Positions 6,222 through 43,042 of a stretch of 64,000 nucleotides of DNA are shown piece after piece. The translations under genes were made by a program, and so were the position numbers. Position 1 is the first letter of the stretch; the number at the start of each line of letters is the position of its first letter. This stretch comes from Candidatus Jettenia caeni (GTDB taxonomy: Bacteria; Planctomycetota; Brocadiia; Brocadiales; Brocadiaceae). The DNA is taken from NCBI GenBank assembly GCA_000296795.1, contig BAFH01000002.1, positions 342,686 through 406,685 on the forward strand. Direction: 5' to 3'. The notes below the pieces were generated by a model. That model saw nothing but the letters and a program-made list of their open reading frames with translations, was not told where the DNA came from and did no database searches.

Positions 6222-6273
6222 AAAAAGCCTTACTGTAAAGATATTTCTTAAAAGCATCTTCGGCAGTAAGGCT
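6222..6273 (-). terminator. Intrinsic terminator downstream of phoU / GEMM-like RNA
   Basis: AGCCTTACTG pairs with CAGTAAGGCT around a 28-nt loop, and the reverse-strand transcript then enters a U run (TTTTTTATTTTT). Confidence 0.75.
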
Positions 6274-6420
6274 GTCTTATTTCTATCGTGTCACTTATAA
6301 GTGTAAGTGTCTGTTATGTATAACTGACACTGTTCACGAATACTTTTCACTGTTACAAGATCCTTTACTTTGCGCCCCCTGATCACTCAGGGTTTGCCTT
6401 TATCGTAAAGGCATTCTATT
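6222..6420 (-). ncRNA. Candidate c-di-GMP-I (GEMM)-like riboswitch with terminator
   Basis: On the reverse strand AAAGGCAAACC (6393-6403) leads into a stem CCCTGA-GTGA-TCAGGG capped by a GNRA loop, followed by GGGCGCAAAG (6368-6377). This is the hallmark first half of GEMM. About 95 bases later comes GACAGCC-TTAC-TGCCGA (6259-6277 on the reverse strand), resembling the GGCAGCCGGGUUGCC arm of the aptamer. That arm is also the 5' side of an intrinsic terminator, giving a classic mutually exclusive switch. Between the halves is a hairpin-rich extension (AGTGTC...GACACT). The loop lacks the usual GGG and the closing stem is unclear, so this is a divergent or decayed aptamer. It follows phoU, and no gene now begins directly after it. 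Confidence 0.4.
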
Positions 6421-6496: not shown

Positions 6497-7162
6497 CTAA
6501 TACTTTGATACATTGAGCTCTTCCATCTTTCCTGTAACCATAAATACAATCCTCTCCGCAATATTGGTTACCCTGTCTGCAATACGTTCCAAATTGTGCG
6601 AAACCCAGGTTAAGTATGTGGCTCCGTGGATTATCCTCGGATTTTGTATCATCAGAAGCAGGAGTTCCCGGTAAATCTGATCATGAAGGGCATCTACCTT
6701 ATCATCTTCATTACAGATAAACCTCGCCGCTTCTATATCTCTGCTGACAAATGCCTTGAGACATTTATCGAGCATGGATAATCCTAATTCAGCCATTCTT
6801 GGGATATCAATCAGGGGCTTTACTAAAGGTTCATCGCCTATTAATAAATTTATTTTCGCGATTCCCTCTGCATGATCGCCCATGCGCTCAAGGTCTGTTA
6901 CTATGCTTAATATAGAAGTCAGCGTTCTTAAATCGACAGCCATAGGCTGCTGTGTAGCAATAAGGAAAATACACTTTTCTTCAATCTCAAACCGTTTTTT
7001 ATTTATATAAATGTCGCTTGCTATAATTTCTTTAGCGGCTTGTTTATCTCTCTTTTGAAGCGACTCAACAGATTTTTGTATAGCAATCGATACCATCTTT
7101 CCCATCGCCAGCACTTCATCCTGTAGATTCTGTAACGCCTTGTGATAAACATCTCTTGTCAT
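6497..7162 (-). CDS. phoU: Phosphate-specific transport system accessory protein PhoU
   Basis: A 221-residue, all-helical protein with the duplicated PhoU three-helix bundle. Conserved acidic metal-binding signatures are in both halves (TDLERMGDHAEGIA and SHNLERIADRVTNIAE). PhoU links the Pst transporter to the PhoR-type kinase and represses Pho signalling when phosphate is ample. It is the last gene of the operon behind pstB. AGGGGAAGG precedes the ATG. Confidence 0.97.
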   Translation of the reverse strand: MTRDVYHKALQNLQDEVLAMGKMVSIAIQKSVESLQKRDKQAAKEIIASDIYINKKRFEIEEKCIFLIATQQPMAVDLRTLTSILSIVTDLERMGDHAEGIAKINLLIGDEPLVKPLIDIPRMAELGLSMLDKCLKAFVSRDIEAARFICNEDDKVDALHDQIYRELLLLMIQNPRIIHGATYLTWVSHNLERIADRVTNIAERIVFMVTGKMEELNVSKY

Positions 7163-7218: not shown

Positions 7219-7983
7219 TTACCCAAATCTTCCCGTAATATAATCCTCCGTTTGTTTTTCATGTGGGTTTGTGAATATTTCCGTTGTAACATCAAACTCT
7301 ACGAGCTCTCCATGCATAAAGAAACCAGTAAATTCAGATATCCTGGCTGCCTGCTGCATATTGTGGGTAACAATAATAACGGTATAATCTGTTTTTAGTT
7401 CGACCAGCATATCCTCTATTTTTGCGGTAGCAATAGGGTCAAGGGCTGAACAGGGTTCATCAAGAAGTATGATCTCAGGCTCTACAGCTATTGCCCTGGC
7501 AATACAAATCCGCTGCTGCTGACCTCCGGAAAGATCAAGGGCGCTTACACGAAGTCTATCTTTTACCTCATCCCAAAGCGCAGCCTTTTTCAATGCCTTC
7601 TCACAAATTTCATCCAGAGCACTTCTTTTGTGAATGCCCTGCACCCGTGGTCCGTATACGACATTCTCGTAGATACTTTTTGGGAATGGATTTGGTTTTT
7701 GGAACACCATCCCAACTCTCCTTCTCAATTCTGTGACGTCTACAGCAGGGGCATAAATATCCTCTCCATCTATTTTAACGGTTCCTTCTATTTTTACACC
7801 CTCTACGAGATCGTTCATACGGTTCAAACATCTGATCAAGGTAGATTTTCCACAGCCGGATGGTCCAATAAAGGAAGTTATCTTTTTTTTTGCAATATCA
7901 AGATGTATCCCTTCCAGCGCCTTAATTTTGCCATAATAAAGAATCAGGTCTATAATATTAACTATCGGGTCAGGGACTATCAT
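7219..7983 (-). CDS. pstB: Phosphate ABC transporter ATP-binding protein
   Basis: The 254-residue ATPase that drives phosphate import. Walker A is GPSGCGKST, the Q-loop lies in [12 protein letters not shown], the ABC signature is LSGGQQQR, and Walker B is IILLDEP followed by the H-loop in [11 protein letters not shown]. The [15 protein letters not shown] block is diagnostic of PstB. It lies 56 bases upstream of phoU and 77 bases downstream of pstA. Confidence 0.98.
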
Positions 7984-8060: not shown

Positions 8061-9659
8061 TTATAAAGCCGTTGTTCTGTACCGCTTTCTCAGCTTGTTC
8101 CTCATTACTATAGCAGTAAGATTCAAGACAAGTACGATGAAAAGTAAAACAAGTGTTGTGGTATAGACCATGGGGATGGCCGCCTCTACATTGGGAGACT
8201 GAAATCCAACATCATATATATGGAAGCCTAAATGCATAAACTTTCTTTCAAAATGGATATAGGGAAAATACAGATCTACCGGAAGAGAGGGCGCTAACTT
8301 CACAACTCCCGTGAGCATTAAGGGTGCAACCTCACCCGCAGCCCTTGCCATAGCGAGAATGGTACCGGTAAGTATCCCGGGGGTTGCCTGAGGAATTACG
8401 ACCTTCCATAAGGTTTCAAATTTTGTAGCACCTAGCGCATAAGAACCTTCCCTTACGGATTTTGGTACAGAAGATAACCCTTCTTCCGTTGCCACAACAA
8501 CTACCGGCACCGTCAGAAGCGCCAGAGTAAGGGATGCCCATAAAATACCACCGGTTCCAAAGGTAGGGGCTGGCAAGGATTCCGAGAAAAATACCTTATC
8601 GATATTTCCACCCACAAAGTAGATGAAAAAACCGAGACCAAAAACCCCGAATACAATGGATGGAACACCTGCAAGGTTACTCACTGATATCCTGATGAGC
8701 CGTGCAACAATATTATCATCGGCGTATTCCCTGAGATATACTGCTGTCAATACACCAAACGGGACAACCGCAATGCTCATAATGAACACCATCATAACCG
8801 TCCCAAAAATAGCAGGGAATATCCCCCCCTCGGTATTTGCCTCCCGTGGTTCGGTTGATACAAATTCCCAGAGCTTCATCAGGTAAAAACCAATTTTAGC
8901 AAAAACTCCCATTTCGTTCGGGGCGTAGACCCTGATAATATTAAAAACAGGCATACTCTTCTCTTTACCATCAGCAAAAAGCACGATAATTTCTTTTTCT
9001 TTCGCCTGAGCATACAGCCCGGCAAGTATATCTTCTTTTTCCCTGTAGGTCTTTTCGAGATTTTCCACCTTGTCCTTTACCTCTTCTATATCCTCTTGTG
9101 CCTTTACCGAATACTGCTGCATCATCAGGCGCTTCAATGCAAGGCGATATTTTTCCATCTGATAATTTATCTTGCCAATCACTTTTCTCTCAATATACCG
9201 TATCCTCTTCAAAAGCGCCTTACTTTCTTCCCGAAGCGGTGCCAACTCTTCGAGATTCAGAGGCTGAATATCGCCATCCTGTTTCAGTCCTTTTAAAAAA
9301 CCGTACATATTACCCCATTCACGCCTCTCAAAAGTTAAAGCATATAAGGGATATTCACGGGATACAATATCCGTATTATCGATCCATCTGAAGTCCATAC
9401 CGTAAACATCTCTGTTACCGACCTTTAATTTTGTCCGATACATGCCTTTTTTTTGCGGGATGGGCTCTTCTTTTTCAATCTCACCCAAAACCACCGTACC
9501 ATCCTGAAGCGTGAATTTAACAATTGTATGGGGCCAGAATATACCAAGCCCCTTCATCATAATGAGCACAACCAAACCGCCAACCATTAACATACTGATA
9601 GTCAGAGCGCATGCAGTCAGCCAGATATAAGGATTACCCGTTCTCAAGAATTTCTTCAT
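8061..9659 (-). CDS. pstA: Phosphate ABC transporter permease PstA, extended
   Basis: Inner-membrane permease of the Pst importer. An N-terminal membrane helix is followed by about 230 extra residues, including a charged coiled coil (residues ~140-225). The canonical five-to-six-helix permease follows (from about residue 285: GTVMMVFIMSIAVVPFGVLTAVYLREY), with the EAA loop near EGSYALGATKFETLWKVVIP. Usual PstA is close to 300 residues; extended forms are known in several Gram-negatives. Its start overlaps the stop of pstC by four bases (ATGA), so translation is coupled. Confidence 0.93.
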   Translation of the reverse strand: MKKFLRTGNPYIWLTACALTISMLMVGGLVVLIMMKGLGIFWPHTIVKFTLQDGTVVLGEIEKEEPIPQKKGMYRTKLKVGNRDVYGMDFRWIDNTDIVSREYPLYALTFERREWGNMYGFLKGLKQDGDIQPLNLEELAPLREESKALLKRIRYIERKVIGKINYQMEKYRLALKRLMMQQYSVKAQEDIEEVKDKVENLEKTYREKEDILAGLYAQAKEKEIIVLFADGKEKSMPVFNIIRVYAPNEMGVFAKIGFYLMKLWEFVSTEPREANTEGGIFPAIFGTVMMVFIMSIAVVPFGVLTAVYLREYADDNIVARLIRISVSNLAGVPSIVFGVFGLGFFIYFVGGNIDKVFFSESLPAPTFGTGGILWASLTLALLTVPVVVVATEEGLSSVPKSVREGSYALGATKFETLWKVVIPQATPGILTGTILAMARAAGEVAPLMLTGVVKLAPSLPVDLYFPYIHFERKFMHLGFHIYDVGFQSPNVEAAIPMVYTTTLVLLFIVLVLNLTAIVMRNKLRKRYRTTAL

Positions 9660-11914
9660 AACTTACTATACCTTCGCTTCATTTTCTGCCTTACCGTTTC
9701 TGCAAATGTATTTACAATAAAGGTTGTTACAAAAAGAAGCAGAGCTGCCAAAAAGAGCACACGGTAAAGTGTTCCGCCGACAGGCGCTTCCGGCATCTCA
9801 ACTGCAATATTTGCGGCAAGCGCCCTAAACCCATTAAATAAATTCCAACCCATAATAGGGGTATTACCTGTTGCCATAAGCACAATCATCGTCTCGCCTA
9901 CTGCCCTTCCAAAACCAATCATAACTGCTGAAAAAATTCCCGGACTTGCAGTTGGAAGCACGACCCTAACGGCTGTATGCCAGGTAGTTGCTCCGAGTGC
10001 CAGTGAGGCCGATGTAAGATTATTAGGAACATTGCTCATGGCATCTTCAGATATGGTGAAAATAAGAGGAATTACGGCAAATCCCATTGCGAAGCCTACA
10101 ATAAGGGCATTTCTCTGGTCATAGTTCAGACCCAAAATATGTAAAAGCCATTGCCGGTAATCTCCTCCGAAAAGAACTGATTCAGAAACGCTATTGAGCT
10201 GGATTGACACATAGATAGCCCCGATAATAAACGGTATCAGGAACAGGGCTTCTGCCCCATATCGGTATTTACCCTTTATCCATGAGGGTAAACACCTCCA
10301 AAGATACAAAGCCAAGGCAATGGAGAGTATGATGAATAACGGCATAATAACTATTGCAGGAAATACCCTCTCTATTAATGGCGCTAACCACAATCCGGCA
10401 AGAAATCCAAGAATAACGCTGGGAAGCGCTGCCATCAGTTCAATAACGGGCTTTATTATCTTGAGGGATTTGTGAAGAAATTGGGAGGTGTAGAGCGCAG
10501 CAAAGATTCCAATAGGCACAGCGATGATCATGGAGTATACAGTACCTTTAATAGTGCCAAAAATCAAGGGGACAAGACTGAGTTTCGGTTCAAAATCATC
10601 AGTCCCCCCGGTAGATTGCCAAACAAACTCCGGTTTCTCATACCCTTCATACCACACCTTGCCAAATAGGGTTTTCAGGGTAATCTCCGGATGTGGATTT
10701 GAAATAATCCATTGGAACAAATTATTGTTTGAACTTGCTGCCAGAATACCGTCTGCCTTGGGTGAAAAAGTAAGGGCTGTAGGGGTAGCTGGCACCTTAA
10801 AGATTAATACATTTTGTTCGGAAGTTGCATGGTTGAGATAGATGGTTCCATTCGCTGCCGAAGTCACAAAACCCTTATCTCGCAGAGAGGGCGCAAATGC
10901 TGTAACAGGGGCGTCATGAGATTTAAGGGTGTGTATTTTCTTAAGCACCCATCCTGATGGTGATGTTTCATCCCTTACCTGCATCCAGATATTTACACCA
11001 CCTTTATAATCACCAACTGCAAGTGAAATATCTCCAAACAAAAACCCCAGGGTAGTTATTGCCTTATCAGATACCTTTACCTTTTGCTGCAAAGAAGGAT
11101 TTTCTTTGTCGCTTATATTTATATGGAATAACTCGCCCAAGGATGTCCCGATATAGAGGTTTTCCATAAAATGATCAAGGGCTAGAGAAGTTATATCGAC
11201 TCCATTCTCCAGGCCTGGAGGATAGAGTCTTGAGTTATTATATGCCGCATGTATTCTCTTTGGTTGACATTGCTTTACGAGACCAGTGATATCCAGCTTA
11301 ATTTCCTTTTTTTCCCCTGTATCAAACAGGGTGCTCACTTCCTCTATGGATTTCAGCAATAATCTGCCATCTTCTGTAGAGACTACGGTAGCCGTTGTAC
11401 TATCATCACTACTGGATGTAATATTCCTGAGCGTTTTCTGCTGGTCATCAATTTGTACGGGTTCTTCTTCAGATACTTCGGGAATAATAACCCTTTTTTC
11501 GTTATCAAAGGATTCAGAAAAGGTAATAGAGACGGTTAAGATTCTTCCATCATTCGTTCCCAGAACAAGGCGATTATCATCCTTATCAACTGACGTTATC
11601 GTAGAGTCTTTAAGCCCTGAGATAAGGTATTTATTTAAAATGCTACCATCTGATAAAGAGATAAACGCTATAGTACCATCGTGAGAAACTGCATAGGCAA
11701 GTTCCTGATGTTCATTTATTCCAAGGGAAACGGTATTGCCGTTCAGAGGAAAGGTCTTTTCTTTTAAGACCTTAGCACCTTTAAGAAGCGGATAAACCTC
11801 GACAAACAGAAATACAAATAGGGCGAGCACAGCAAAAATGGTAGCTGCGCCACCGAATGTAATTACCCAGCGGGCGGCCTTATCAGTGAGTCTTCTTTTT
11901 CTTAAATGCCCCAT
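9656..11914 (-). CDS. pstC: Phosphate ABC transporter permease PstC with extracytoplasmic propeller-like insert
   Basis: A 752-residue permease. Helix 1 (about residues 15-42) is followed by about 400 residues of repeated beta-type segments (GTNDGRILTVSI, GTSLGELFHINI, TSAANGTIYLNHA, SSNNNLFQWII) that look like WD40-type blades. The standard permease resumes near FGTIKGTVYSMIIAVPIG and contains the EAA motif ASLALGATTWHTAVRVVLP. The insert would lie outside the inner membrane next to PstS. Large PstC forms are known in some Gram-negatives; the propeller reading here is by eye. Confidence 0.92.
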   Translation of the reverse strand: MGHLRKRRLTDKAARWVITFGGAATIFAVLALFVFLFVEVYPLLKGAKVLKEKTFPLNGNTVSLGINEHQELAYAVSHDGTIAFISLSDGSILNKYLISGLKDSTITSVDKDDNRLVLGTNDGRILTVSITFSESFDNEKRVIIPEVSEEEPVQIDDQQKTLRNITSSSDDSTTATVVSTEDGRLLLKSIEEVSTLFDTGEKKEIKLDITGLVKQCQPKRIHAAYNNSRLYPPGLENGVDITSLALDHFMENLYIGTSLGELFHINISDKENPSLQQKVKVSDKAITTLGFLFGDISLAVGDYKGGVNIWMQVRDETSPSGWVLKKIHTLKSHDAPVTAFAPSLRDKGFVTSAANGTIYLNHATSEQNVLIFKVPATPTALTFSPKADGILAASSNNNLFQWIISNPHPEITLKTLFGKVWYEGYEKPEFVWQSTGGTDDFEPKLSLVPLIFGTIKGTVYSMIIAVPIGIFAALYTSQFLHKSLKIIKPVIELMAALPSVILGFLAGLWLAPLIERVFPAIVIMPLFIILSIALALYLWRCLPSWIKGKYRYGAEALFLIPFIIGAIYVSIQLNSVSESVLFGGDYRQWLLHILGLNYDQRNALIVGFAMGFAVIPLIFTISEDAMSNVPNNLTSASLALGATTWHTAVRVVLPTASPGIFSAVMIGFGRAVGETMIVLMATGNTPIMGWNLFNGFRALAANIAVEMPEAPVGGTLYRVLFLAALLLFVTTFIVNTFAETVRQKMKRRYSKL

Positions 11915-11921
11915 GCCTGTA

Positions 11922-12896
11922 TTATTCTAACTTTTTCAGTTCATCTTTAACAACTAAAGCTGGTATAGGAATATATCCATCTTTTACAACGACTTCCTGC
12001 CCCGCCCTGCTTAGAATAAATTTTATAAATTCTCTGACGAGCGGGTCAAGGGGTTGACCTGGCTTCTTATTAATATATACATAGAGAAACCTTGCCAGTG
12101 GATAAGAACCGTTCATTACATTTTCCATTTCAGCCTCTTTATAGGGTTCTCCTTCTTTAAATGAAAGGGGTACCGTACGTATACCGGAAGTCTTGTAACC
12201 AATGCCACTGTAACCGATAGCATATCGGTCCTCGGTTACACCCTGTACGACAGAGGCAGAACCTGGCTGCTCTTTTACAGAATCTTTGAAGTCGCCCTTA
12301 TAAAGGGCATGTTCCTTGAAATAACCATAGGTACCCGAGGCAGAATTACGACCATAGAGACTCATCGGCCGGGTTGACCATTCTCCTGCTAAACCAAGCT
12401 GTCCCCATGTTTTAATGTCTTCTTTATACTTGCCTTTCCTGGTTTTTGAAAAAATAGCGTCCACCTGAGGTAAACTTAAACCTTTAAGAGGGTTATCCTT
12501 ATTTACATATATTGCCAGGGCATCCAATGCTGTCCTTATTACGGTGGGCTTATAACCATATTTCTTCTCAAAGGCATCGATCTCGGTAGGTTTCATTGCT
12601 CTACTCATCGGCGCTATCTGAGCTGTTCCCGAGATAAGAGCAGGTGGTGCAGTGGTAGAACCCTTACCCTCTATCTGGATCTTTACATTCGGATATACCT
12701 GGTTAAACCCCTCGGCCCAGTAGGTCATGAGGTTATTCATGGTATCAGAACCTATACTGTTCAGATTTCCTGAAACCCCACCGACCTTAGCATAAGGTTT
12801 TATGTTTGCATCAACCTCAACAGCCTCACTGGCAATAGTTATGCTCGTTAAACTAAAGCTAAAAATTGCCATGAACACCCATGCCTTCTTTACCAT
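11922..12896 (-). CDS. pstS: Phosphate-binding protein PstS
   Basis: Periplasmic phosphate receptor of about 324 residues. A signal peptide (MVKKAWVFMAIFSFSLTSI...ASEA) precedes the PstS fold with GSDTMNNLMTYWAEGF, the phosphate-site loop GRNSASGTYGYFKEH and SVVQGVTEDRYAIGYSGIGY. The ATG at 12896 is chosen because AAGGAGAG lies just upstream and the signal peptide begins there; the longer frame to 12995 overlaps the previous gene. It is third in the operon after the porin and the duplicated-domain protein, with pstC 8 bases behind. Confidence 0.95.
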   Translation of the reverse strand: MVKKAWVFMAIFSFSLTSITIASEAVEVDANIKPYAKVGGVSGNLNSIGSDTMNNLMTYWAEGFNQVYPNVKIQIEGKGSTTAPPALISGTAQIAPMSRAMKPTEIDAFEKKYGYKPTVIRTALDALAIYVNKDNPLKGLSLPQVDAIFSKTRKGKYKEDIKTWGQLGLAGEWSTRPMSLYGRNSASGTYGYFKEHALYKGDFKDSVKEQPGSASVVQGVTEDRYAIGYSGIGYKTSGIRTVPLSFKEGEPYKEAEMENVMNGSYPLARFLYVYINKKPGQPLDPLVREFIKFILSRAGQEVVVKDGYIPIPALVVKDELKKLE

Positions 12897-12969
12897 ATAC
12901 CTATCTCTCCTTTCATTTTCATTAGCATATTTGAACACTATATTACTCAAATTAATTCGAGAAGTCGAC

Positions 12970-13506
12970 TTATTTTTTGGAATGACGTTTATCATACTCC
13001 TTTACTGCCTCATCTGAATCGAAGACGGCGGTTTCGCCATTTGGCCCGTACCCTATCTTGACAATACTTTTGCCCATTTCTCCTGTTTTTTCAAACTCTG
13101 CCTTTCGTGCAGGCGATGTAAAAACGTACAGCCTGCCATCAATCTTAAATTCTTTATAAGCTTTGATATTGGTCTTTCCGAGTAGCTCTTTCACAAGACG
13201 AGATTCGTACTCAATCACAGCCTCTTCTGAATCAAAGACAACTGTTTCACCATTCGGTCCGTATCCGATCTTGATGATACCTTTCCCTAACTCACCCGTT
13301 TTCTCAAACTCCTCCTTTCGTTTAGACGAAACAAATATGTAGAGTCTTCCATCCTTGCTAACTTCTTGATAGGTACCTTCTTTTACTGTTTCATCGCTTG
13401 CAGTTACAGCCTGACACCTGGCCGTCTGTGGGATGGTACAAAGCGTGATGCCAGTAATACTTATCATGAAAGCAAAACGGGTAATCTTTCCATTAAATTT
13501 CCCCAT
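12970..13506 (-). CDS. Secreted protein with two tandem ~50-residue repeats, in the pst operon
   Basis: A 178-residue protein with a signal peptide (residues 1-32, ending ARCQA). Two homologous units follow (about 52-101 and 122-171), each of pattern DGRLYxFxSxxRKxEFEKTGExGKxIxKIGYGPNGETxVFDSxEAVxEY. The Leu-Tyr-x-Phe-x-Ser-x-x-Arg start is vaguely like a YHS domain without its cysteine. Placed between the phosphate porin and pstS behind the same Pho-box promoter, it is probably a periplasmic phosphate-starvation protein. No known family is recognised and the function is unknown. Confidence 0.75.
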   Translation of the reverse strand: MGKFNGKITRFAFMISITGITLCTIPQTARCQAVTASDETVKEGTYQEVSKDGRLYIFVSSKRKEEFEKTGELGKGIIKIGYGPNGETVVFDSEEAVIEYESRLVKELLGKTNIKAYKEFKIDGRLYVFTSPARKAEFEKTGEMGKSIVKIGYGPNGETAVFDSDEAVKEYDKRHSKK

Positions 13507-13552: not shown

Positions 13553-14932
13553 TTAGAAGATAATTTGATACTGTATCCTGAACCTATTCTCCTGTTGGTC
13601 CTGATCTTCTCCCTCGGTTACATAATGACTAAAATCTGACTGTATCTTTGAACGATGGGCACGGAAATAATAGTTTATACCCAAAGCATACTCTCTCCCC
13701 GTATCATTTGAAACATCATCATTAGGGTCAAGCTGGGAGTAACGGGCTGCAACCTCCAGCCTTTTCGGCAATACGAAATAACCAACCTGGGTAAAGAATC
13801 CATCTGAATCTATTGAACCATCATTGTCTTCTGGATCTTGAGACATCATGTAGTATTCATTATTCCACGATATACCCTTGTATTTAACACCAAGATCTAC
13901 AACCCCGGCAACGCCATCAGTAGCTTCTAATTTTTCATCTTGCAACTTAGGATTAAAAACTACAGCAGCCCCGATGGTTGCCTTTACTTTCTCGGAATAT
14001 TTTACATCGGTTTCATCGTAATAGTCATACTTTCCAAATGGGTTATATCTTACACCGAGGACATACATAAGTTCGTTATCGATATTATCGTCTGTACCCC
14101 TTTCTGCAGGATCTTCTCCAGCCCCATTAAATACCGCGGCATGGTATTCCACGTGTCCATCAAAGGGCTTCCCGTAAATATCAAACCCATAATCTCTATC
14201 CTGATCAAAAAACTCACTGGCAATGGATCTGTCTTGTAAGAGAAGTTTTGAAGATGATGAAACCCTTTGCCTGTTAAATGGCACCTTAAAGTACCCGATC
14301 TTGGCATTTAATTCTTCAAAAGGAGTAAAATATACATAAAAATCTCTTATATCAACATTAAAACTATCTCCATCTAACTCGACATAGTAATGGATGAGTT
14401 TGCTGTAGATATTACCACCAAAATAAACCCTTGCCCTACGAACATCGATATTGTTTGTATCGTTTTTCCCAAAATCTTCATCTCTATCCTTAAATGTATA
14501 TCGGAATTGCAACCTACCCCCTGCATTTAATGTATAATCTCCTTCTCGTGATTTGATACTTAACGCATATTTCTCATCATCAGGAGTGTATACCGGCGTG
14601 AGTCCGGGCATGCCAAGTGCCATTTTTTCCCTGGCTTCGGTTGTAGACATATAATCTTCAATCTCATGTTTAATCTCCTCCTTGGTAATGGGCGCAGGCG
14701 CCGGGCTGACCGTCTCCATACGGTTTTTTAATGCCTGTATCTGCTCCTGCTGCCTTTGCATTGACTCCTCCATCTGTTTCAACTGCCATTGTAAATAATC
14801 ACGCTCGCTTCCGGATATCTCCTCAGCCTGTTCTGTTTCCTGGGCAAACGTACCTTGTGGCATGTTAACTGCATACGTACTCCATAATACCATTGCAGAT
14901 GATAAAACACCTGTATACCATTTCCAACGCAT
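13553..14932 (-). CDS. Phosphate-selective porin O/P-like outer-membrane protein
   Basis: A 459-residue exported protein. A signal peptide (ending TFAQ) is followed by a coiled coil (EISGSERDYLQWQLKQMEES..., about residues 40-75) and then a beta barrel of the Porin_O_P type, with alternating aromatic strands (YTLNAGGRLQFRYTF, RRARVYFGGNIYSKLIHYYV, IGYFKVPFNRQRVSSSSKLL). It ends in the terminal-Phe strand RIQYQIIF. The role is phosphate or polyphosphate uptake across the outer membrane. AGGAGGT precedes the ATG. It is the first gene after the Pho box at 15334-15394, with an untranslated leader of nearly 400 bases. Confidence 0.9.
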   Translation of the reverse strand: MRWKWYTGVLSSAMVLWSTYAVNMPQGTFAQETEQAEEISGSERDYLQWQLKQMEESMQRQQEQIQALKNRMETVSPAPAPITKEEIKHEIEDYMSTTEAREKMALGMPGLTPVYTPDDEKYALSIKSREGDYTLNAGGRLQFRYTFKDRDEDFGKNDTNNIDVRRARVYFGGNIYSKLIHYYVELDGDSFNVDIRDFYVYFTPFEELNAKIGYFKVPFNRQRVSSSSKLLLQDRSIASEFFDQDRDYGFDIYGKPFDGHVEYHAAVFNGAGEDPAERGTDDNIDNELMYVLGVRYNPFGKYDYYDETDVKYSEKVKATIGAAVVFNPKLQDEKLEATDGVAGVVDLGVKYKGISWNNEYYMMSQDPEDNDGSIDSDGFFTQVGYFVLPKRLEVAARYSQLDPNDDVSNDTGREYALGINYYFRAHRSKIQSDFSHYVTEGEDQDQQENRFRIQYQIIF

Positions 14933-15040: not shown

Positions 15041-15239
15041 ACCTGAAAGGATTGCCTTACAGAATGAAATTCCTATGCACATAGCGCAACATAGTTACCA
15101 CGAAACTATTCCTCTTACAAGAAAGCCATGATAAGAAATCAAAATTCTTGAGAATGAAGAATAATAAAATATCATTTTGAACAACGCGCAAAATCGCATG
15201 TATTAAAAGAAAAAATTTTTTACTGCTGAACACAATAAA

Positions 15240-15275
15240 CTGGGGGAGAGGAGGAGGAATCCCTCTCCCCCAAGG
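15240..15275. repeat. Hairpin in the porin leader region
   Basis: CTGGGGGAGAGG pairs with CCTCTCCCCCAAG around a short purine loop. It lies between the Pho box and the porin start, so it would be in the leader RNA. No U tract follows on the reverse strand, so it is not a clear terminator. Confidence 0.5.
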
Positions 15276-15333
15276 GGTCCGGTTGTCCTTTACCGGAGAT
15301 TCACACGAGGTTAATCATGCAAATCATGAAAAC

Positions 15334-15394
15334 ATTCTACATTGCGAATATTAAGGAAATGTTAAGGAATTGTTAATTTTGTATTAATTTGAAG
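15334..15394 (-). promoter_or_regulatory. Pho box A and promoter of the porin-pst operon
   Basis: TTAA cores start at 15351, 15362, 15373 and 15384, an exact 11-bp period. On the reverse strand they read TTAAtAc, TTAACA, TTAACA, TTAATA, matching the PhoP/PhoB direct-repeat form. A -10-like TAGAAT lies 11 bases downstream (15334-15339), so the box takes the place of a -35 element. Confidence 0.85.
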
Positions 15395-15525
15395 GGTAAA
15401 TAATTTAGGCATCATTACTAAAGTAAATCCATTGCTTCCTCTTGTCATTTCATAAACACATTAACATACATATAAAATGGCCTAGCGCTGCAGATTGTAT
15501 AAATCCATCCATATAAAAGCAGTTA

Positions 15526-16305
15526 TTAAAATGGCTTACTAAAAATGTACCCTTGACCCCAATCTACTCCTAGTTCTTTAACGGTTATTAACTCATCAAC
15601 GGTCTCTATCCCTTCGGCCACAACAGTCGAATGAAAGACCTTATGGCACATATCTACAATCATTTTAAAAACAGCTTGTTTTTTAAAAGATTTATTGATG
15701 TTCTCTACCAGAGATTTGTCAATTTTAACTATCTGAGGATTTGCTTCGGAGATATGTTTTAAGCCAGTATTTCCAGAGCCAAGGTCGTCTATGGCTATTG
15801 AAAAACCTTGCATTTGATAATAGGCTAATGTCTGATAAAATAGATTCGAATCCCTTATAAGGGTTCTTTCTGTAATCTCAAGGACTATATTGTCAATTTT
15901 AAATCCGAATTTTTCAATAAGAGATTTTGTCTCTCCCTTGTTATGGTTTGTATACGTTAAACAAGCTGCGTCTATATTGATAAATAATTTCGTAACTTTT
16001 GTATTTAAGGATAACTTGTTAGCGTGAAAAATAGCTTTTTCTCTGCAGAGCATGTCCAGGTTTTCTAATAATTTCAATTTTTCTGCAACATCAAATAGAT
16101 ATAGTGGATTCTCGAATATGCTTGTCTCAGGCCCTCTGCTTAAGGCCTCATAGCCTACAATATCTCCTGTTGTAAGACAAACAATAGGCTGAAATTTGGT
16201 GGAGATTAATTTATTATTGAGAATTTTCTTAAATTCCTCTTCAAATCTATTCATGATTTTTGATTTTGGATCTATCCCTGATATGAGTGTAATTTCGGAT
16301 ATCAT
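15526..16305 (-). CDS. EAL-domain c-di-GMP phosphodiesterase
   Basis: A stand-alone EAL domain of 259 residues. Signature positions are visible: FQPIV, GYEALSRG (the EAL glutamate), the metal-ligand pair LFINID and VLEITE, IDDLGSG, the lysine in VKIDKSLV, VVAEGIET and the QGYIFSKPF end. All catalytic residues appear intact, so hydrolysis of c-di-GMP to pGpG is expected. No sensory domain or membrane helix is present. The ATG at 16305 is preferred over 16335 because AAAGGAACG precedes it. It lies 162 bases behind the histidine kinase on the same strand and may be co-transcribed from Pho box B. Confidence 0.9.
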   Translation of the reverse strand: MISEITLISGIDPKSKIMNRFEEEFKKILNNKLISTKFQPIVCLTTGDIVGYEALSRGPETSIFENPLYLFDVAEKLKLLENLDMLCREKAIFHANKLSLNTKVTKLFINIDAACLTYTNHNKGETKSLIEKFGFKIDNIVLEITERTLIRDSNLFYQTLAYYQMQGFSIAIDDLGSGNTGLKHISEANPQIVKIDKSLVENINKSFKKQAVFKMIVDMCHKVFHSTVVAEGIETVDELITVKELGVDWGQGYIFSKPF

Positions 16306-16466
16306 ATGCCACGTTCCTTTTCTCTTAATAGGCATTCATTGTTTATTCACTGAGGTCTTATATCTTTAACCCTTTAATTCAATTCTGAGGGATAATACGA
16401 CCTTGATGCAAAGATCATCTGTTTTTATCAAGAATCCATTTTATTTAAAATTTACAAGGAAAGATC

Positions 16467-17279
16467 CTACCTGAGTACCGGTAAAATTATAATAATTTTG
16501 GTAAATTCCCCCTCGGCACTATCAATCTTAAGTTTACCACCATGTTCAATAATAATTTCGTTGCTAATACTTAAACCCAATCCCGTACCTTTACCTTTAG
16601 GTTTGGTTGTAAAAAATGGACTCGTTACTTTATTTATTATATGAGCAGGAATACCTGTACCATGGTCGTAAAAGATAACTTTTACGAAGGGACAATCATC
16701 TATCATTATTTCTTCAGCCAAGATCTCAAGAATTTTATTCTCATGGGCTTCTGGGTATTTTTGATTCAAGGCATATCGTGCATTACTCAGGATGTTCAAG
16801 AAGACTTGCTGAATTTGGTGAGGATTTATAAGTATTTCAGGAAGTCCCGCAGGAATAGTCAGGTTTAATATAATACCTTCTTTTTTCAGTTGTGCATGTA
16901 TCAGAATAAGTGTATCAGAAAGCATTTCATACATGTTAATACCATATTTCTCTTCTTTTCTATCACCGGGTCTGGATAAAGAAAGAAGATTATTAACAAG
17001 ATGGGCTATGCGGTTGCCTTCTTTGGTAATTCGATTGGCAATATCGTTTTCTTTACTCCCTTTAACACTTTTATTAACCAATAGTTGAGAACAATTTACA
17101 ATACCAGTAACAGAATTGTTAATCTCGTGGGCCATACTTGTAGCCAGTTCTCCTAAAGACACCATACTTTCCATACGCAAATATTCTGTCTGCAGAACTT
17201 CTTTTTCGGTAACTTTTCGGAAATTACTGAGTATACTGACGATATTACTTTTTACATTTACTATTCGATTTTTAGCCAT
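16467..17279 (-). CDS. Soluble histidine kinase
   Basis: A 270-residue kinase core without membrane helices or an obvious input domain beyond about 40 residues. The H-box is SMAHEINNSVTGIVNCSQLL (His near residue 51), the N-box is HQIQQVFLNILSNARYAL, the G1 box reads DHGTGIP instead of DNGxGI, the F-box is SPFFTTKP and G2 is GKGTGLGLSIS. It should autophosphorylate; a partner regulator is not adjacent. AAAGGAG precedes the ATG. It lies 66 bases behind the small membrane protein driven by Pho box B, so it is probably induced in phosphate starvation. Confidence 0.92.
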   Translation of the reverse strand: MAKNRIVNVKSNIVSILSNFRKVTEKEVLQTEYLRMESMVSLGELATSMAHEINNSVTGIVNCSQLLVNKSVKGSKENDIANRITKEGNRIAHLVNNLLSLSRPGDRKEEKYGINMYEMLSDTLILIHAQLKKEGIILNLTIPAGLPEILINPHQIQQVFLNILSNARYALNQKYPEAHENKILEILAEEIMIDDCPFVKVIFYDHGTGIPAHIINKVTSPFFTTKPKGKGTGLGLSISNEIIIEHGGKLKIDSAEGEFTKIIIILPVLR

Positions 17280-17344
17280 AAGAAACTCCTTTTGCCTAAA
17301 AACAAAACACCAATATTTTTTTCTCCTTCAAATTTTCTTTTGGA

Positions 17345-17545
17345 CTACGCTAATGAATATTCCGCTAGCTCCATCATTTCCAGGATATCGTTGATATCGT
17401 ACTGTACAGATTCACGTGATTGATACTTTTCGAACAATACCCCTTCTTCCTCTTCTCTTAGTTTGTTTAGCTGAAACATAGCAAACAATGACGCAAGAAA
17501 AACAAATCCAAGTAATCCAAGGATAATACTCATCATGAAAAACAT
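17345..17545 (-). CDS. Small single-span membrane protein
   Basis: About 66 residues from the ATG at 17545, which has AAAGGTGG upstream. One membrane helix (residues 1-25) is followed by a charged tail with a cluster of glutamates (LREEEEG) and an acidic end (DINDILEMMELAEY). It lies first behind Pho box B and upstream of the kinase, so it could be a membrane partner of that kinase; this is inference. No family is recognised. Confidence 0.6.
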   Translation of the reverse strand: MFFMMSIILGLLGFVFLASLFAMFQLNKLREEEEGVLFEKYQSRESVQYDINDILEMMELAEYSLA

Positions 17546-17622
17546 AATTCTTACCACCTTTCTTTTTAAAAAAACAGTGCCGTTGTTACTCATTACGCTA
17601 TTTACCACCCTTATACACAGAT

Positions 17623-17683
17623 ATTATAAACTTTAAATATTAAGGGAATGTTAAGAACTTGTTAATTTTGTGTTAAATTTAAT
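17623..17683 (-). promoter_or_regulatory. Pho box B and promoter
   Basis: TTAA cores start at 17640, 17651, 17662 and 17673, an exact 11-bp period. A perfect TATAAT (reverse strand, 17623-17628) lies 11 bases beyond. It faces the small membrane protein and the kinase, and overlaps the 3' end of the psiE-like gene. Confidence 0.85.
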
Positions 17684-18137
17684 ATGGGTGTTTTAGACTG
17701 GGTGAATATTTAACCGTAAAAATCCTCATGATACACAAGGTAAGAACAAGAAAGGTTATCATACCCATCTTATAGAGATCAAATTCTCTGAACCAGCATG
17801 CCATGACTTCTGTAAGCATTACGACAATTACGGTGTCGATAATATACGTTACCTTTACCCGCCCCTCGGAAAAATAGGCAAGGGTTGTTTTAAATATCTC
17901 AAGAACGGCAAGTATGGTAAGTACATCGATAATGATAATCCGCAAAGCATGCTCTATATCCATGGTAAACAACAGTCGTAAATGAAAGATGGTTATAATA
18001 ACACCACCCAACATACACGAAAGGATAGCAAGGATTAACAGACTGAGCACCCACCTCGCCAGCTTCTCATAAAGCATCGATGGGCTAAATTCCATCCATC
18101 TATTTTTAAGGAAGCCGTTCAAAACTTCTAATTTCAT
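17679..18137 (-). CDS. psiE: PsiE-like phosphate-starvation-inducible membrane protein
   Basis: About 152 residues with four membrane helices: VLSLLILAILSCMLGGVII, then ALRIIIIDVLTILAVLEIF, YIIDTVIVVMLTEVMACWF and MITFLVLTLCIMRIF. The helix pattern and the central VLEIFKTTLAYF resemble the PsiE family, which is induced by phosphate starvation through PhoB in enterobacteria; its biochemical role is unknown. The ATG at 18137 begins MKLEVLNG. It is driven by Pho box C. A decayed copy of its 3' end lies at 18376-18485. Confidence 0.85.
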   Translation of the reverse strand: MKLEVLNGFLKNRWMEFSPSMLYEKLARWVLSLLILAILSCMLGGVIITIFHLRLLFTMDIEHALRIIIIDVLTILAVLEIFKTTLAYFSEGRVKVTYIIDTVIVVMLTEVMACWFREFDLYKMGMITFLVLTLCIMRIFTVKYSPSLKHPY

Positions 18138-18298
18138 ATGACAATACCCCCCAAAATAGTAATTACCCAATCTTAAGTAAAATTTTATAACCTACATTAT
18201 TATCTATAATCATCAGCACCCTCTGTTTCCCATCCATCAAGGCTTGGTTACCCTTACCAGAAACCTATATGGAGTTAACCATGCAAATCAGAAAAGAA

Positions 18299-18358
18299 TT
18301 ATAGACCTTATATATTAAGTAAATATTAAGAAACTGTTAATTTTGTGTTAAATGTAAA
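18299..18358 (-). promoter_or_regulatory. Pho box C and promoter of psiE
   Basis: TTAA cores start at 18315, 18326, 18337 and 18348, an exact 11-bp period. TATAAT (reverse strand, 18299-18304) lies 10 bases beyond. Sequence after the -10 (TGATTTGCATGGTTAAC) is shared with the region after box A. Confidence 0.85.
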
Positions 18359-18375
18359 AATAATTACACATATTT

Positions 18376-18485
18376 TCTATTTGGAGAATATTTAACGGTA
18401 AAGATTCTCGTTATGCATAACAGCACAAGAAGATCATCATACCCATTTAAAGAGGCCAAACTCTTAGCACCAACATGCCATGATT
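18376..18485 (-). pseudogene. Decayed duplicate of the psiE 3' end
   Basis: This stretch aligns along its length with 17702-17814, the end of psiE: shared blocks are AATATTTAAC, ATCATACCCAT and AACATGCCATGA against AGCATGCCATGA. It is followed at lower coordinates by Pho box C exactly as psiE is followed by Pho box B, so an operator-plus-psiE segment was duplicated in tandem and the outer copy decayed. Confidence 0.75.
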
Positions 18486-41831: not shown

Positions 41832-42003
41832 GGTGCTGTTTGACATAAAGCTTTAGAGAAGAATATGTTATTTCAGTAAATAGGATGTAAAACATGAAAT
41901 TTTTTAACGAAAACAGGTTTAATTTTAAGGTAAAAAATTACATTTTGACAAGGAGTAATTTTTATGTAAGTGTCGTAATAAATAAAGATAGCATAGAAAT
42001 GCG
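41832..42003 (+). promoter_or_regulatory. CRISPR leader
   Basis: A 172-base AT-rich stretch between cas4 and the first repeat. It has a TTGACA at 41945-41950 but no clear -10. The end is GATAGCATAGAAATGCG next to repeat 1, nearly repeated upstream of cas8b. Confidence 0.75.
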
Positions 42004-43042
42004 CTTGAGAGGTAATTCCATTAAAACAAGGATTGAAACGTCTCCACTTGCTAGTTTCTCCGCCATCGTGGACAAACTTGAGAGGTAATTCCATTAAAAC
42101 AAGGATTGAAACTCTGTGAATATCTGCTTAGCTTGATTGAGTGTCTGCTTGAGAGGTAATTCCATTAAAACAAGGATTGAAACATTTCAAGTAACTTGTC
42201 AGCCTCTTCTTGGGTGGCCTTGAGAGGTAATTCCATTAAAACAAGGATTGAAACCTAAGAGAAACACACCCTCCCTACTTAAACGAGGGTCTTGAGAGGT
42301 AATTCCATTAAAACAAGGATTGAAACCAAGTGAGCCACATTGTTGAAACCGGGATACAGGTCTTGAGAGGTAATTCCATTAAAACAAGGATTGAAACAGA
42401 ATATACGAGAAGTAATTCCTGCAGCTACAATCCTTGAGAGGTAATTCCATTAAAACAAGGATTGAAACCCTTTATAATTTTTACCTTACCAGGGGAAATC
42501 GAGGCTTGAGAGGTAATTCCATTAAAACAAGGATTGAAACACTAGCCATTCTGGCACTTGTACTCCATTTAAGGACTTGAGAGGTAATTCCATTAAAACA
42601 AGGATTGAAACTTGTCTTAAAAAATTTGAATAGTCAGCTTTGGAATCCTTGAGAGGTAATTCCATTAAAACAAGGATTGAAACCTTTTTTGTATTCAATC
42701 ACCCCTAAAACATTTACCGCTTGAGAGGTAATTCCATTAAAACAAGGATTGAAACATCATCTGTTATGTATTCGACTTGTTCAACCTCGCGGCTTGAGAG
42801 GTAATTCCATTAAAACAAGGATTGAAACATTACCGATACAGTTCCATCGCCATTATTCGCCGTCTTGAGAGGTAATTCCATTAAAACAAGGATTGAAACA
42901 TACCTGAGATCCAGAACGGATCCGTCAGCCCCGTCTTGAGAGGTAATTCCATTAAAACAAGGATTGAAACACAAACACAGGGACAAACACCCATGCGCAA
43001 ATCGACCTTGAGAGGTAATTCCATTAAAACAAGGATTGAAAC
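42004..43042 (+). CRISPR. CRISPR array, 15 repeats of 36 nt, 14 spacers
   Basis: Repeats start at 42004, 42077, 42148, 42219, 42291, 42362, 42433, 42505, 42576, 42649, 42720, 42793, 42864, 42935 and 43007. Each begins CTTGAGAGGTAATTCC and ends AAGGATTGAAAC; all 15, including the last, look identical by eye. Spacers are 35-37 nt. The ATTGAAAC end is the usual 5' handle of type I-B crRNAs, so transcription is on the plus strand, away from the cas genes and leader. Confidence 0.99.

Follow-up and report, generated by a model that had tools for sequence, protein, structure and literature searches.

Putative PhoB-type operators of four TTAAYA units, with an attached candidate leader RNA, in an anammox bacterium

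The window analyzed here, a 64,000-nucleotide stretch of the Candidatus Jettenia caeni genome, contains three promoter elements that are very probably PhoB-type operators, constituting the Pho switch of this anammox lineage and activating its phosphate-starvation genes. This assignment, made at the sequence level, is based on the observed box itself, its rarity and conservation, the content of the genes behind it, the fixed spacing to a -10 element in the absence of a -35 element, and the occurrence of a single candidate regulator of the OmpR/PhoB type. What the scheme predicts is that PhoB binds the boxes, that the response depends on phosphate, that the genes are activated instead of repressed, and that each cluster is transcribed as a unit.

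When phosphate is short, a PhoR/PnpS-like kinase would phosphorylate the single PhoB homologue, two dimers of which would bind head-to-tail on one helix face, with one monomer per 11-bp TTAAYA unit. As the last box unit would cover the site of the missing -35 element, RNA polymerase would be recruited to the -10 element, nine bases past the box. The promoters switched on would be those of the porin-pst-phoU cluster, of psiE, of the membrane protein-kinase-EAL genes and, outside the window, of pstB2-phoU2. At several such promoters, the transcript would begin with a conserved three-hairpin leader RNA. In the standard PhoB model, two tandem dimers on four units bring the polymerase to a -10 element lacking a -35 (PMC4415409, PMC10294691), and the anatomy described below matches this model in every testable feature.

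Anammox bacteria are important in wastewater treatment and in the nitrogen cycle, and are genetically hard to manipulate. The boxes offer a sequence-level definition of their phosphate-starvation regulon, which would extend beyond pst to EAL (c-di-GMP) enzymes, an Acr3/SBF-type transporter, and PhoX phosphatases.

Operator Architecture and Associated Genes

The window belongs to an assembly of 4.09 Mb in four contigs, 99.95% complete. Re-scanning it confirmed an earlier note made from the sequence alone, both in coordinates and in sequences: TTAA occurs four times at exact 11-bp steps from positions 15351, 17640, and 18315, and no other such run exists in the window. Four-unit TTAA runs at the other periods from 5 to 30 were likewise absent from it, and none arose in 40 third-order Markov simulations. 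The repeats had been described as TTAACA-like on the reverse strand, and all twelve minus-strand units (12/12) indeed read TTAAYA. The direct-repeat layout of a Pho box, with an 11-bp period and at least two units, is therefore present here with four units. The -10 elements that had been proposed (TAGAAT, TATAAT, and TATAAT) were also correctly read, and all three lie at an identical offset, nine bases past the last box unit; transcription would be expected to start near 15326, 17616, and 18290. With a scoring matrix built from 77 sites of the Jettenia genome and its relatives, the window's three boxes included, boxes 1, 2, and 3 score 64.2, 70.8, and 63.0 bits, respectively, while the next-best positions in the window are register shifts that reach at most 5.9 bits.

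The names previously given to the genes behind the boxes (porin-pst-phoU, small membrane protein-kinase-EAL, and psiE) hold when protein family models are applied (Table 1). The PstC permease of the first cluster carries a long N-terminal beta-propeller/WD40-like region ahead of its transport domain.

Table 1. Coordinates of the operators, leader RNAs, genes, and duplicated segment in the window.
Feature	Position	Strand	Evidence or remark
Pho operator 1, four TTAAYA units at 11 bp, before the porin-YHS-pstS-pstC-pstA-pstB-phoU cluster	15349..15387	-	
Operator 1 -10 element	15334..15339	-	TAGAAT
Pho operator 2, before the small membrane protein-histidine kinase-EAL genes	17638..17676	-	
Operator 2 -10 element	17623..17628	-	TATAAT
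Pho operator 3, before psiE	18313..18351	-	
Operator 3 -10 element	18298..18303	-	TATAAT
Structured leader RNA, three hairpins, from the expected +1 of promoter 1	15235..15325	-	CM R1, 94.2 bits (training member)
Weak leader relative before psiE	18206..18289	-	24.7 bits, E 0.0023; first half conserved
PhoU	6497..7162	-	TIGR02135 over cut-off
PstB	7219..7983	-	TIGR00972 over cut-off
PstA	8061..9659	-	TIGR00974 over cut-off
PstC, N-terminal beta-propeller-like part	9656..11914	-	TIGR02138 over cut-off
PstS	11922..12995	-	TIGR02136 over cut-off; true start probably downstream of ORF start
YHS-like protein in porin-pst cluster	12970..13506	-	PF04945 below cut-off
Phosphate-selective porin O/P	13553..14932	-	PF07396
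EAL-domain c-di-GMP phosphodiesterase	15526..16335	-	PF00563
Histidine kinase	16467..17279	-	HisKA + HATPase_c
Small membrane protein, 87 aa	17345..17608	-	no family
PsiE	17679..18170	-	PF06146
Duplicated segment of ~190 bp with Pho box and psiE 3' end	17623-17806 and 18298-18483		remnant at 18370-18432

Genome-Wide Occurrence and Origin of the Boxes

When the whole genome was searched for runs of four TTAAYA units with up to three mismatches, exactly four perfect sites emerged, namely the three of the window and one at C2:803319-803357. The remaining matches consist of two register shifts of this fourth site and a single 3-mismatch box at C4:306402, which was discarded because of its matrix score of -7 bits. 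The fourth box lies 81 bp ahead of a second pstB-phoU pair, both products of which are over their NCBIfam cut-offs, and TATGAT/TATACA are found in its -10 region. As it was located by the pattern alone, it constitutes an independent prediction that came true. Directly before it (locus L010, 1995-6334) lie a second phosphate-type porin and then molybdate-type transporter genes, whose modA, modB, and modC labels were assigned from sequence.

Boxes 2 and 3 are contained in a duplication, 74% identical, that carries a leftover of the psiE 3' end, and a 78-bp block is common to boxes 1 and 3. The three boxes of the window are, therefore, not independent by descent, and their local cluster grew partly by duplication. 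This kinship is what would favor regarding the boxes as chance products or duplication debris of AT-rich intergenic DNA, but such an origin has a negligible probability, given the lack of four-unit matches in the simulations or at other periods, the position of the fourth site before a second pstB-phoU, and two results obtained with relatives: the reversed pattern, searched as a control, was found in none of 59 genomes, and many species conserve the -10 element at one fixed offset.

Conservation in Relatives

With at most one mismatch, the box is present in 39 of the same 59 relatives' genomes. In a sample of the phylum, it occurs in 14 of 15 Brocadiaceae, whereas among about 273 genomes from beyond the order only 2 have it. 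The order's fourth family, f4, to which Scalindua belongs, has a diverged box, made of TTAACC units with TTTATA as the third unit. In Methylomirabilota and Gammaproteobacteria, TGTCA-type repeats, scored at a looser threshold, take its place near named pstS loci.

Once register shifts had been removed, 77 non-redundant sites were compared with reference proteins. A recognized gene of the putative regulon follows 72 of them, a figure that is partly circular, since several reference families were added because they follow boxes. The number of sites preceding a core phosphate gene, 50 of 77, constitutes the unbiased part, except for phoX, which was likewise added because it was found behind boxes. 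By nearest gene, this core set comprises porin (25), pstB2/phoU2 (12), pstC (4), pstS (3), and psiE, phoX, and phoB (2 each). The phoB tally of two includes just one site, L111, that precedes a close PhoB homologue (76% identity); the other, L098, precedes a receiver-only protein of 123 aa with 29% identity, so that the core count would be 49. The non-core genes behind boxes encode EAL, SBF/Acr3-like transporter, cNMP-binding, CheW, small zinc-ribbon, and beta-helix proteins, and at five sites there is no recognized gene. The cNMP-binding, small zinc-ribbon, and beta-helix targets recur without a known phosphate role. One of them, a zinc-ribbon-like protein of about 100 aa with no known family (L081 832-1140 and homologues), stands behind Pho boxes at at least six sites.

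The position of the -10 element is sharply fixed in the aligned sites: TANNNT occurs at offset 49 in 53 of 77, and the mean match to TATAAT at this offset is 4.77 out of 6, versus at most 2.82 at other offsets. No TTGACA-like -35 element appears at the expected position in the 77 aligned sites, in which the box occupies the -35 place at a short fixed distance from the -10. Recurrence before phosphate acquisition genes of relatives, the other hallmark of a Pho box, was also found. The earlier note had staked its reading on conservation before the pst operons of relatives; this was searched for and is present, and the recurrence extends across Brocadiaceae to porin, pst, phoU, psiE, phoX, acr3, and EAL genes, with the predicted -10 element included. 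In the accessible literature, mostly outside subscription journals, nothing relevant was found on Pho boxes of anammox bacteria or planctomycetes.

The Candidate Regulator

The genome encodes one OmpR/PhoB-type DNA-binding domain (Trans_reg_C), in a protein of 228 aa, encoded at C3:172085-172768, that shares 45% identity with E. coli PhoB and retains the phospho-acceptor Asp54, as well as Thr84 and Lys106. Its best NCBIfam model is PhoB, at a score below the strict cut-off (265.5 vs. 296.2). The adjoining kinase is over the PnpS cut-off (PnpS/PhoR-type), and the PhoB-type regulator and PhoR-type kinase that a Pho box calls for are both encoded. This PhoB homologue is not adjacent to pst in the Jettenia genome; its counterparts in sister families are encoded at most a few kb from pstS. 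The matrix scan revealed no box at the locus of the homologue itself, which suggests that autoregulation is absent or different; one relative has a box ahead of phoB.

It is very unlikely that some other regulator favoring 11-bp direct repeats binds the boxes, phosphate being incidental. Other OmpR-family regulators do bind direct repeats, and the cNMP-binding, CheW, and zinc-ribbon targets are not phosphate genes, but the single OmpR/PhoB-type domain of the genome, the prevalence of core Pho genes behind the sites, and the proximity of PhoB to pst in sister families all argue for PhoB.

Comparison with Known Pho Boxes

The Bacillus subtilis PhoP box is composed of TTAACA units at 11-bp steps, with four units per core site. 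The anammox box shares the unit type, the period, and the number of units, but belongs to a Gram-negative host with a phosphate porin, prefers TTAATA as unit 3, and favors a CAAAA or CAATC spacer after unit 1. With the E. coli Pho box, it has in common the 11-bp direct repeats, the two boxes totaling four units, the pst and phoB targets (PMC4415409), and the location of the box in the -35 place at a fixed short distance from the -10 (PMC4415409; strict spacing in PMC10294691). The unit differs, as it reads TTAAYA rather than CTGTCAT.

Cyanobacterial SphR boxes consist of CTTAACCT repeats with 3-bp linkers (PMC1906773). They resemble the anammox boxes in their TTAA core, in their 8-bp units that total 11 bp with the linker, in having three or more units, in targeting pst (along with phoA), and in their Gram-negative hosts (PMC1906773). 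Nevertheless, the anammox unit does not conform to the SphR consensus CTTAACCT: its consensus is TTAAYA, with A at position 6 in 92-99% of sites. A four-unit TTAACA box had been put forward as a distinctive signature in a Gram-negative bacterium. The TTAAYA form is clade-specific, but a TTAA-core box of this kind is not unique, SphR boxes sharing its TTAA core and 11-bp period (PMC1906773). As the PhoB/PhoP/SphR architecture is textbook knowledge and TTAA-core boxes exist in Gram-negative cyanobacteria, the box is less singular than claimed: it adds a new, lineage-level form to an established operator type and brings no novel mechanism.

The base-contacting residues named for E. coli PhoB are T194, V197, R201, and R219 (PMC3264566). 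In the aligned Brocadiaceae homologues, T194, V197, and R219 are kept, whereas R201 is replaced by Ser (Ala in a few). From the alignment, this replacement would fit a changed G:C contact, as a correlation only. The idea that R201-to-Ser alone accounts for the TTAACA preference was not adopted: SphR reportedly keeps the PhoB contacts, described as highly conserved, although the box that it binds has a TTAA core (PMC1906773), and f4 regulators have Lys-His at R200-R201 alongside the TTAACC/TTTATA variant box. In this respect too, the anammox homologues, with R201 changed, differ from SphR. The clade-specific TTAAYA box and the R201-to-Ser change in PhoB together offer a natural test case for the evolution of response-regulator specificity.

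A Probable Conserved Leader RNA at Pho Promoters

The leader is the novel part of this regulon, one that a specialist would not expect, and it occurs only in Brocadiaceae. At promoter 1, roughly the first 90 nt of the expected transcript form three hairpins, and a folding z-score of -4.84 was obtained for the enclosing 102 nt. In relatives, leaders of this kind are found past the -10 element at many sites. In a structure-free alignment, seven base pairs show double changes, versus a shuffled mean of 2.5, and 88.5% of cells are paired, versus at most 51% when slid. A realigned 29-member set scores still higher, with an alignment fitted to the structure. With the covariance model, 24 matches were obtained, spread over 19 of the 59 relatives' genomes, all Brocadiaceae, and none in about 114 genomes of other families of the phylum sample. 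Rfam leader families are likewise structured bacterial leaders upstream of operons, but none matches: nothing reached the gathering cut-off, with only chance-level matches (E up to 5).

Ten leader matches were neither in the training set nor first found via the box. In five of them (L291, L293, L296, L298, and L301), a full or weaker box precedes the RNA at the usual distance or at most nine bases off; the box of L297 contains one 10-bp step, and L285 has about half a box. The genes after these seven leaders encode a porin, an Acr3/SBF-like transporter, a cNMP-binding protein, and a zinc-ribbon protein plus PsiE. Among the other three, the match at L300 looks spurious, and those at L288 and L294, taken up below, have no box. 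Before psiE in the window, the weak relative of the leader folds no better than shuffles (z -0.30).

The leader is likely a real conserved RNA, which may act as a 5' mRNA stabilizer or in translation or attenuation control. On balance, the evidence leans slightly toward a second, RNA layer in the Brocadiaceae Pho regulon, in which this covarying three-hairpin leader at the +1 of many PhoB-promoter messages would be a new RNA family controlling the stability, translation, or termination of phosphate-starvation genes (the porin-pst cluster, the cNMP-binding regulator, the Acr3/SBF-type transporter, and psiE). It is thus a candidate RNA family tied to one regulon. Promoter 1 might otherwise mainly yield a small RNA of about 90 nt, terminated at the third hairpin, the porin having another promoter. 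At 15240-15273 (-), a strong hairpin with TTTATT behind it, called terminator-like, points in that direction, as do the approximately 300 nt between the third hairpin and the porin start, and two strong leader copies of relatives (L288 1501-1591 and L294 1501-1613) located directly after the stop codon of the upstream gene, with no Pho box. This is nevertheless rather unlikely, as most relatives have only a weak T tract (AATTCTT) and the starts of several regulon genes lie no more than about 60 nt past the third hairpin, as in an mRNA leader.

Two other candidates were set aside: a CsrA site formed by AAGGA in the hairpin 2 loop, because some leader members have no GGA, and a match in the same genome at C1:64173 (35.9 bits), a GC-rich hairpin without a box or the conserved first half.

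Another RNA element of the window is a c-di-GMP-I riboswitch (RF01051, 55.6 bits) at 6259-6408 (-), just 3' of phoU; together with the EAL gene behind a Pho box, it hints at a link between phosphate and c-di-GMP. Farther along, at 42003-43042 (+), the window contains a CRISPR array of fifteen CRISPR-DR7 repeats.
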